NCBI GenBank assembly: GCA_003171315.1
Contig: PMYE01000150.1
Location: 1-33,935 of the forward strand
DNA: 33,935 nucleotides
Reading direction: 5' to 3'
Origin: Acidobacteriaceae bacterium
GTDB lineage: Bacteria > Acidobacteriota > Terriglobia > Terriglobales > Acidobacteriaceae
In this document: one piece after another, positions 7,277-7,484 of the stretch
Layout: every line of letters begins with the position of its first letter
Numbering within the stretch: position 1 is the stretch's first letter
The notes under the pieces: generated by a model
The model's database searches: none
What the model was told of the DNA's origin: nothing
Seen by the model: the letters and a program-made list of their open reading frames with translations, nothing else
Position numbers and translations under genes: made by a program

Positions 7277-7312
7277 AAAAGAAACAATGAAAACGGCCCG
7301 CATCCGTTTTCA
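7277..7312 (-). terminator. Attenuator-like terminator in the metYX leader
   Basis: On the minus strand TGAAAACGG, a 7-nt loop and CCGTTTTCA make a perfect 9-bp stem (7304-7312 with 7288-7296), followed by TTGTTTCTTTT (7287-7277). It lies 38 nt after the leader-peptide stop and about 150 nt before metY. The 3' arm can instead pair further upstream: CGGCCCG (7324-7318) with CGGGCCG (7300-7294). Confidence 0.65.
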
Positions 7313-7440
7313 GGACCCGGGCCGCTCGACTTCTGAATCGGTTGCGTTGTTAGCGCATTCGCCGCTCAAGAGCCTCACGGACGGGTCCGCAGACCATACA
7401 CATGCACATGGCCATGACCGCAATTCCGTGTTCCCGTGAG
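7313..7440 (-). promoter_or_regulatory. Competing RNA pairings in the metYX leader (candidate attenuation switch)
   Basis: Two long-range perfect 7-bp pairings exist on the minus strand. CTCACGG (7440-7434, just before the leader peptide) matches CCGTGAG (7380-7374, inside its second half), enclosing the start and the Met/Cys codons. GGACCCG (7388-7382, leader codons 10-12) matches CGGGTCC (7319-7313), which overlaps the 5' arm of the GC-rich stem at 7318-7324 and abuts the terminator. A ribosome stalled on the Met/Cys codons would open the first pairing and could leave the second free to form. The pairings are seen; the switching is inference. Confidence 0.5.
7350..7415 (-). CDS. Met/Cys-rich leader peptide of the metYX operon (21 aa)
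   Basis: ATG 7415 to TAA 7350 encodes a 21-residue peptide beginning MAMCMCMVCG and ending RRMR. Four of the first seven codons are ATG, and three Cys codons fall within codons 4-9; these are the amino acids made by the pathway it precedes. It begins about 33 nt after the expected transcription start of a good promoter. The ribosome binding site is weak (CACGGA, about nine bases upstream). It is followed by a terminator-like hairpin and then metY. The arrangement matches amino-acid leader peptides such as TrpL or CysL-type uORFs. Expression is not proven. Base choice within the Met/Cys run is the main evidence, since chance runs of this composition are rare. Confidence 0.65.
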   Translation of the reverse strand: MAMCMCMVCGPVREALERRMR

Positions 7441-7454
7441 ACCGGCATAAAGGC

Positions 7455-7484
7455 AGTATCAAGGGGCGAAGGGGTGGGTGTCAA
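7455..7484 (-). promoter_or_regulatory. Sigma-70-type promoter of leader peptide-metY-metX
   Basis: On the minus strand TTGACA (7484-7479) and GATACT (7460-7455) are separated by 18 bases. The predicted start is near 7448, giving a long leader of about 320 nt before metY. It lies 68 bases past the ubiX stop, so metYX has its own promoter. Confidence 0.65.

Follow-up and report, generated by a model that had tools for sequence, protein, structure and literature searches.

What controls the metY-metX operon at this acidobacterial locus, where a promoter, a short open reading frame (ORF) rich in Met and Cys codons and a terminator-like hairpin stand ahead of metY? A sequence-only reading of the window (the whole 33,935-nt stretch of DNA that was analysed) had proposed Met/Cys attenuation, and the conservation of the ORF, its codons and the terminator in relatives, together with covariation, now supports that proposal. 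We put the probability at roughly 0.85 that the metYX leader is a ribosome-mediated transcription attenuator that gauges how much charged Met and Cys tRNA is available. Such attenuators seem, from the sequences compared here, to occur in Acidobacteria related to Terracidiphilus and Granulicella.

Results

A conserved leader precedes metY-metX

From promoter to terminator, the locus has an ordered anatomy with a conserved frame and codons, a terminator, competing pairings and covariation (Table 1). metY and metX each exceed the cut-off of their NCBIfam model (NF006096 and NF001209, respectively) and are separated by 15 nt; an RBS-like AGGAGA (7140-7135) lies ahead of metY. The closest named records for metY (metY identity 92%) come from Terracidiphilus and other Acidobacteriaceae MAGs, which fits the Acidobacteriota setting of the original proposal. 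The promoter in that proposal is present: TTGACA (7484-7479) and GATACT (7460-7455) are separated by 18 nt on the − strand, and positions 7000-7800 hold one such site versus 0.1 expected from shuffles. Among 90 distinct leaders, which we pooled from all sources and selected by Met/Cys content and −10 likeness, 75 have TTGAC in the 45 nt that lead up to the ATG, and in 70 a site 6-7 nt ahead of the ATG agrees with TATACT at five or more of its six positions. Between terminator and metY, the window also holds a perfect 11-bp stem (CCCAAGAAGCG/CGCTTCTTGGG, 7247-7220), at whose site the aligned genus leaders show gaps or differing sequence.

Table 1 Features of the metYX leader, its operon and related elements (window positions unless a locus is named)
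Feature	Position	Strand	Basis
−35 element TTGACA	7479..7484	-	Pattern match; TTGAC present in relatives' leaders
−10 element GATACT	7455..7460	-	6 nt before leader ATG
Leader ORF, MPVSREHGIAVMAMCMCMVCGPVREALERRMR then stop, 32 aa, probably leaderless	7350..7448	-	Run in frame with ATG 7448 across loci
UGCCG overlapping leader start codon, pairs with 7364-7360	7443..7447	-	Conserved pairing
Region 1, CACGGA, pairs with region 2b as protector around Met/Cys codons	7425..7430	-	Conserved pairing
Sensor codons, Met/Cys run MAMCMCMVC, leader codons 12-20	7389..7415	-	Translation
Region 2, GGACCCG, antiterminator 5′ strand, resembles terminator 3′ arm	7382..7388	-	Conserved pairing and co-variation
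Region 2b, TCCGTG, pairs with region 1	7376..7381	-	Conserved pairing
CGGCG, partner of start-codon strand, 7 nt before leader stop	7360..7364	-	Conserved pairing
Small hairpin TGCG...CGCA, leader stop codon (7352-7350) in loop	7343..7357	-	Conserved pairing
Intrinsic terminator stem-loop, GGCCCGGGTCC 7323-7313 / GGATGCGGGCC 7305-7295	7295..7323	-	Conserved pairing
Region 3, CGGGTCC, antiterminator 3′ strand, within terminator 5′ arm	7313..7319	-	Conserved pairing and co-variation
T-rich tail of terminator	7277..7293	-	Sequence
metY, O-acetylhomoserine sulfhydrylase (homocysteine synthase), regulated gene	5801..7129	-	NF006096, 745.7 bits (cut-off 726)
metX, homoserine O-acetyltransferase, second operon gene	4619..5785	-	NF001209, 380.5 bits (cut-off 331)
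SAM-II-like motif downstream of Cys-rich leader ORF, before metY	L151 2285-2328; L154 2286-2329; L156 2281-2325
Tyr-rich leader (MRFTATYAYYYYAT.. or MNLMHSYYAYYYAS..), layout like metY's	L074 466-611; L077 517-660; also L208, L209, L220

A search for metY in 60 relatives yielded 30 loci with same-genus orthologues, whose aligned upstream regions retain promoter, ORF and terminator. A second search, of named genomes, yielded 80 loci, mostly from Acidobacteriaceae with a few from Pyrinomonadaceae, other groups and Paenibacillus; the two sets overlap, and many loci come from identical genomes. An ORF with at least four Met/Cys per seven residues and at least two Cys lies within 600 nt upstream of metY at 61/80 named loci, compared with 4/80 on the opposite strand, a mean of 1.15/80 in shuffles (maximum 4, 20 sets) and 9/233 among other stretches. 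When at least five Met/Cys are required, the count is 54 versus 1 on the opposite strand, 0.1 in shuffles and 1 in other stretches. Two of the named loci, from Acidicapsa dinghuensis (L133) and Granulicella aggregans (L135), belong to named strains without a MAG label, and both carry leaders.

Nineteen of the 80 loci were missed by this count. By eye, four of them have a leader with a single Cys (L085, L092, L113, L136), three combine Met with other residues (L131, L132 and L141, the last Met/Tyr) and L140 has a degenerate leader. No leader was seen upstream of metY in L119, L129, L145, L152, L153, L155 and L160 or at three Paenibacillus loci, and L159 offers only 31 nt of upstream sequence. 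Paralogous or more distant metY-like genes, the genome's own paralogue among them, likewise had no Met/Cys leader in the 20 upstream stretches searched. The exact pattern ATGTGYATGTGYATG, which matched 4/297 phylum genomes, was too strict a measure of spread and was rejected. Judged by sequence conservation, the element is widespread and real.

Leader and terminator share competing, co-varying pairings

We assessed pairings in two alignments. The first (A1) contains 29 same-genus sequences: the element was placed by script in 28/30 loci, L006 had to be added manually owing to its different terminator arm, and L008, truncated by the contig end, was dropped. For the second, 78 loci were chosen and gave 78 matches, and removal of one antisense match of L098 and of duplicates left 65 distinct rows; loci with strongly different terminators were mostly left out and entered the swap test described below. 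Shuffles ignore relatedness, so the shuffle counts given here are supportive and are not probabilities.

An intrinsic terminator between the leader ORF and metY is supported by conservation, although not in quite the form first proposed. The sequence-only reading had singled out a 9-bp hairpin (TGAAAACGG/CCGTTTTCA, 7312-7288); a terminator with a T-rich tail does stand there before metY, but as a bare pattern the hairpin is at chance level (1 versus 0.8). Across relatives, this hairpin is paired in 71.7% of cells, with covariation reached by 10/500 shuffles, and it shares columns with a larger stem. That larger, GC-rich stem (GGCCCGGGTCC/GGATGCGGGCC) overlaps the 9-bp hairpin and is the better conserved terminator, with 93.7% of cells paired in A1 and 99.5% at its six basal pairs in the 65 rows.

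A second proposed helix, joining codons 10-12 of the 21-codon ORF to the base of the downstream stem, proved to be conserved. This antiterminator (GGACCCG, 7388-7382, with CGGGTCC, 7319-7313) is paired in 85.1% of cells in A1 and in 87.6% of 442 cells in the 65 rows, with 0/300 shuffles as high and 10 double-sided changes versus 3.6 in shuffles; the helix was absent from the model used to build the 65-row alignment. When only the genus was considered, the structure including the antiterminator showed covariation not clearly above shuffles (71/500 as high). A further 7-bp pairing had been said to enclose the Met/Cys codons. The reading gave no coordinates for it, but CTCACGG (7440-7434) and CCGTGAG (7380-7374) are the probable strands; although present in the window, this pairing lacks conservation (59.6% of cells, not above shuffles), and we rejected it. 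Conserved in its stead is the neighbouring CACGGA (7430-7425)/TCCGTG (7381-7376), with 84.3% of cells paired in A1 and 85.1% in the 65 rows, an alignment that leans towards this helix because the helix formed part of its model. Inner GGUC/GACC pairs of the protector, at 78.2% in the 65 rows, were equalled by 51/300 shuffles.

Two more pairings emerged. An unexpected helix (7447-7443 with 7364-7360) involves the leader's start codon: in A1 it is paired in 87.3% of cells and has a covariation score of 0.285 versus 0.198 in shuffles (0/500 as high), and in the 65 rows it is 84.9% paired (1/300 shuffles), with nine double changes versus 5.1 (16/300). Around the stop codon, a small hairpin has five pairs in 88.9% of cells in A1 and four pairs in 96.6% in the 65 rows, where a partner slid by two positions still gives 84% and 10/300 shuffles do equally well. 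In the 22 most divergent rows, pairing is 82.8% for the antiterminator, 74.7% for the start-codon helix and 51.2% for the inner GGUC/GACC pairs. Slid controls for the two whole structures in A1 gave 18-45% paired, and the 319-nt leader folds more stably than shuffles (z −2.60).

In other genera, leader strand and terminator arm change together; the arm reads, for example, CGACCCACGG in L070 and L082, GGCCCACGGTC in L075 and GGCCCGGACC in L084. We analysed this relationship and the folding of the leader in 84 typed leaders with 11 arm types, omitting six untyped leaders of the 90. When single leaders were compared with shuffled segments, 23/84 passed at p 0.05 and 8 at 0.01, a weak outcome perhaps because the segments are GC-rich, and this comparison was replaced by a swap test on residuals. 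By raw duplex energy, a leader's own arm is the strongest of the 11 in only 3/11 rows (A, H and L) because some arms bind most leaders well. Set against the values predicted from row and column means, leaders fit their own arm better in 11/11 arm types; all 11 residuals are negative, and permutation gives p 0.00015 for energy and 0.0002 for helix length.

At equilibrium with the full terminator present, the terminator keeps the arm in 76-80/84 leaders at every ribosome position, and the antiterminator is ahead in 4 to 8 of 84. Equilibrium folding thus favours the terminator, and the attenuation model therefore needs co-transcriptional timing. Full-leader equilibrium folding is uninformative as a test of a switch, and we used transcripts truncated before the terminator 3′ arm instead, assuming that a ribosome covers 18 nt before and 11 nt after the first base of its A-site codon. 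With a ribosome on the run's first Met/Cys codon, antiterminator probability exceeded 0.5 in 80/84 leaders; the count was 71/84 for a ribosome in mid-run, 26 for one on the last Met/Cys codon, 47 for one at the stop codon and 48 for no ribosome. These counts come without a shuffled control, and masking by the ribosome alone removes competing pairings. In the window's leader, the values were 0.82 (first codon), 0.82 (mid-run), 0.54 (last codon), 0.12 (stop codon) and 0.82 (no ribosome), so the contrast is between stalling and the stop codon and not between stalling and an empty leader. The modelled folding of truncated transcripts fits attenuation without proving it.

Could the leader act instead on translation or through Rho, with a stalled ribosome exposing or hiding a ribosome site or a Rho site? 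Precedents of both kinds appear in two reports: Cys-rich uORFs with ribosome occupancy in mycobacteria (PMC4633059) and Rho-dependent attenuation put forward for terminator-less cys leaders of Actinobacteria (PMC1262725). At metYX, however, a conserved intrinsic terminator and T-rich tail follow the leader, and the leader co-varies with that terminator. The leader stop, moreover, lies 97-265 nt from metY across leaders (median 133.5), and metY has its own AGGAGA. We therefore consider this explanation unlikely.

The Met/Cys run is held in the frame of the leader start codon

The 21-codon ORF of the sequence-only reading, beginning MAMCMCMVCG, is real (7415-7350, − strand, encoding MAMCMCMVCGPVREALERRMR before its stop), but it is not the frame that relatives conserve. 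An in-frame ATG at 7448, 6 nt past the −10 element, lengthens it to 32 aa, and this longer frame is the conserved one. We tested the relationship by a script that took the first ATG at least 5 nt past GATACT, whatever its frame: in 28/28 placed same-genus loci this ATG, 6 or 7 nt past the −10, opens the frame that holds the Met/Cys run, which makes the 21-aa ORF the second part of the 32-aa ORF. Two of these loci (L028 and L029) lack the ATG of the 21-aa ORF, yet keep the upstream ATG. Among 78 named loci with at least 250 nt of upstream sequence, 55 have all required elements, namely a −10-like site with an ATG 5-9 nt past it and, after a further 15-75 nt, an ATGTGY run; in 55/55 the run shares the phase of this ATG and the frame is open. 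The spacing from −10 to ATG in these loci is 6 nt (14 loci), 7 nt (40) or 9 nt (1), and is thus 6 or 7 nt in 54/55. An ATG so placed fits a transcript 5′ end, as in mycobacterial leaderless sORFs, with the transcription start judged from the −10 spacing. The leader therefore probably starts at ATG 7448, giving a leaderless 32-aa peptide.

The 90 distinct leaders contain 14.3% Met when start Met is left out (17% with it) and 9.4% Cys, values that are no test in themselves because Met/Cys content and −10 likeness guided the selection of these leaders; two of them, L131 and L132, have an assigned start that is probably too late. Codons 2-11 have no excess of third-position variation (diversity 0.39, 0.53 and 0.38 at the three positions), which indicates no protein-level selection on the N-terminal part of the peptide, and single differences between close pairs in these codons are synonymous in 72 cases and nonsynonymous in 367.

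These properties bear on a second alternative, in which the Met/Cys codons are incidental, the ATGTGY repeat serving at the RNA or DNA level, for example as a binding site, without being read as codons. The N-terminal part's lack of any sign of protein-level selection and the conserved RNA structure would both suit such an element. Against it, all 55 frames are in phase and open, Cys is written both as TGC (153 codons) and TGT (108), other codons are interspersed among the Met/Cys codons in some leaders, and Tyr codons replace Met/Cys in a similar layout before phhA (see below). Taken together, these observations make incidental codons very unlikely.

SAM-II-like motifs precede metY in more distant relatives

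No Rfam family scored above cut-off anywhere in the window, and a search of 7100-7600 at E up to 1, SAM riboswitch and T-box models included, returned no match; such a match would have spoken against the attenuation proposal, as would a lack of conservation of the ORF and terminator in relatives, and neither outcome arose. In seven more distant named orthologues (L145, L151-L154, L156 and L160), metY is preceded by a SAM-II-like motif (GTGGCGATTT...CTCCACG...CTGCTAAAG). A strict text pattern of this motif had 0 matches among the other 73 named loci, and an Rfam search of 16 loci at cut-off gave nothing. The best SAM match in L152, to RF00521, has 21.7 bits, below the cut-off of 36 (E 0.014 for 621 bases). 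From its sequence, the motif before these distant metY orthologues is likely to be a relative of SAM-II.

At three of these loci (L151, L154 and L156), a Cys-rich leader with LKHKCMCCCR lies upstream of the motif, so a leader peptide and a riboswitch possibly operate there in tandem. These three fall outside the leaderless layout because they have no good −10 by the ATG (1-2 of 6 matches).

A divergent SAM riboswitch or T-box hidden within the metYX leader itself would find some encouragement in the seven distant motifs and in the sub-threshold RF00521 match, but the empty Rfam searches of the window and of 7100-7600 and the lack of the strict pattern at the other 73 named loci render it extremely improbable beside ribosome-mediated attenuation.

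Similar leaders stand before other genes

A covariance model built from A1 gave matches in 106/300 family genomes and 37/79 genera at E up to 0.01, the weak matches including spurious ones. Apart from the genus metY leaders, we inspected 49 matches, of which 30 (23/29 plus 7/20) lie before metY. Five Tyr-rich leaders (L074, L077, L208, L209 and L220) precede the gene for phenylalanine 4-monooxygenase (phhA), an enzyme that makes Tyr; the gene assignment is above cut-off in both loci tested (L074 and L220), and by eye a −10 lies directly before the ATG in four of the five. Met/Cys leaders were also found before a homoserine dehydrogenase gene (L217, above cut-off), before a NirA/sulfite-reductase-like gene that is cut by the contig end (L222, best match below cut-off) and before a RimK-like ATP-grasp gene (L081 and L212, below cut-off), which in L081 is followed by an SfnG/SsuD-like monooxygenase gene (below cut-off). 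In these four loci, leaders and terminators were read by eye, the full chassis having been tested at metY only. Another Met/Cys leader, MTTTPNSTMTGTATMAMCMCMRHGIPGVGGESGE, stands ahead of a gene in L073 (497-664).

Nine of the 49 inspected matches (L079, L083, L210, L211, L213-L216 and L223) were not recognisable as leaders and were set aside. Terminator-like stems such as GGCCCGAATCC..GGATTCGGGCC occur with no recognisable leader at several sites in one same-genus genome, G005 (L079, L210 and L211). A loose Trp version of the chassis pattern matched 16/31 genomes versus 8 with a backward control; a Trp pair was in frame in 8/23 places, and the ORF was at most 40 aa in five of the eight.

That the terminator is constitutive and the ORF a product of chance, with no regulation at all, would suit the chance-level pattern of the 9-bp hairpin but is scarcely credible given that the element is conserved and co-varies across the family and that several sulfur genes have Met/Cys leaders ahead of them.

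Discussion

The conserved anatomy of the metYX leader suggests how ribosome-mediated attenuation could operate. Transcription would start at or beside the A of the leader ATG, as the −10 spacing implies, and a ribosome would load onto the leaderless RNA. When Met or Cys is scarce, this ribosome would stall in the Met/Cys run (codons 12-18) and keep apart the two strands that flank the run and would otherwise pair. GGACCCG, thus freed, could capture CGGGTCC of the terminator 5′ arm, and transcription would proceed into metY-metX, whose products would make homocysteine and hence Met. When Met and Cys are both ample, the ribosome would instead reach the stop codon and depart, upon which the protector pairings (the start-codon strand with 7364-7360, and CACGGA with TCCGTG) would re-form and the terminator would fold. 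The protector pairings are conserved, and we infer that they free the terminator after ribosome release; translation of the leader, the link from stalling to read-through and regulated termination would likewise follow from the arrangement of these elements.

More broadly, the leaders found at other genes could be parts of a modular attenuation regulon in Acidobacteriaceae, a joint reading that we hold tentatively, at slightly less than even odds. Four features would define it. First, a common chassis, made up of a promoter, an ATG where the transcript starts, the sensor run, a strand similar to the terminator arm and the terminator itself, would accept different codons: Met/Cys before metYX, hom, the NirA-like reductase gene and the RimK-like gene, whose neighbour resembles a sulfone/sulfonate monooxygenase gene, and Tyr before phhA. 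Second, a single run of Met/Cys codons would monitor the two sulfur amino acids at once, a shortage of either causing a stall. Third, the helix over the leader's start codon could re-form behind the ribosome and reset the switch. Finally, the leader device may have exchanged places with SAM-II-like control at metY, the two occurring in tandem in three distant relatives.

The proposed Met/Cys attenuator is anchored in about 90 distinct leaders, including those of two named non-MAG strains. What stands ahead of metY differs by lineage: a leader peptide in one, a SAM-II-like motif in another, both in a third. The short list of operons offers a starting point for the sulfur regulon of a common soil phylum. 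Among the matches listed in a search of open-access literature, a scope that leaves older comparative-genomics attenuation surveys outside, we found no Met or Met/Cys leader-peptide attenuator.

T-boxes are among the known regulators of methionine genes. One such case appears in PMC2965389, and riboswitches and repressors are described for these genes in PMC4239095, which also gives metY as the core target of SAM-II (SAM_alpha) in two alphaproteobacterial orders. The metYX leader serves the same gene as SAM-II, but SAM-II binds SAM directly and needs no ORF, and the window has no SAM-II match.

The cysteine-rich leaderless sORFs of mycobacteria offer a closer parallel. Canestrari (2020) reportedly worked on these sORFs. 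As in PMC4633059, a Cys-rich short ORF, here probably leaderless, precedes sulfur genes. Mycobacterium cys leaders are reported without conserved terminators in PMC1262725; in contrast to the mycobacterial sORFs, the metYX run has behind it an antiterminator strand that co-varies, and then an intrinsic terminator. Moreover, Met exceeds Cys in our leaders, there is no Cys-only run and the run lies in mid-ORF.

Attenuators of the trpL/hisL class combine a short ORF that carries codons for the pathway product with an intrinsic terminator, a competing antiterminator and a protector pairing. The metYX leader shares each of these with members of the class such as those of E. coli and S. meliloti trpLE(G), and the antiterminator that excludes its terminator lies just after the sensor codons. 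Its ATG is probably at the transcript start, like that of the S. meliloti attenuator RNA, which begins with the ATG of its leader ORF according to PMC7298713. Unlike trpL/hisL, the metYX leader places Met and Cys in one run, belongs to sulfur genes in an acidobacterial host and has its own start codon in a conserved helix.
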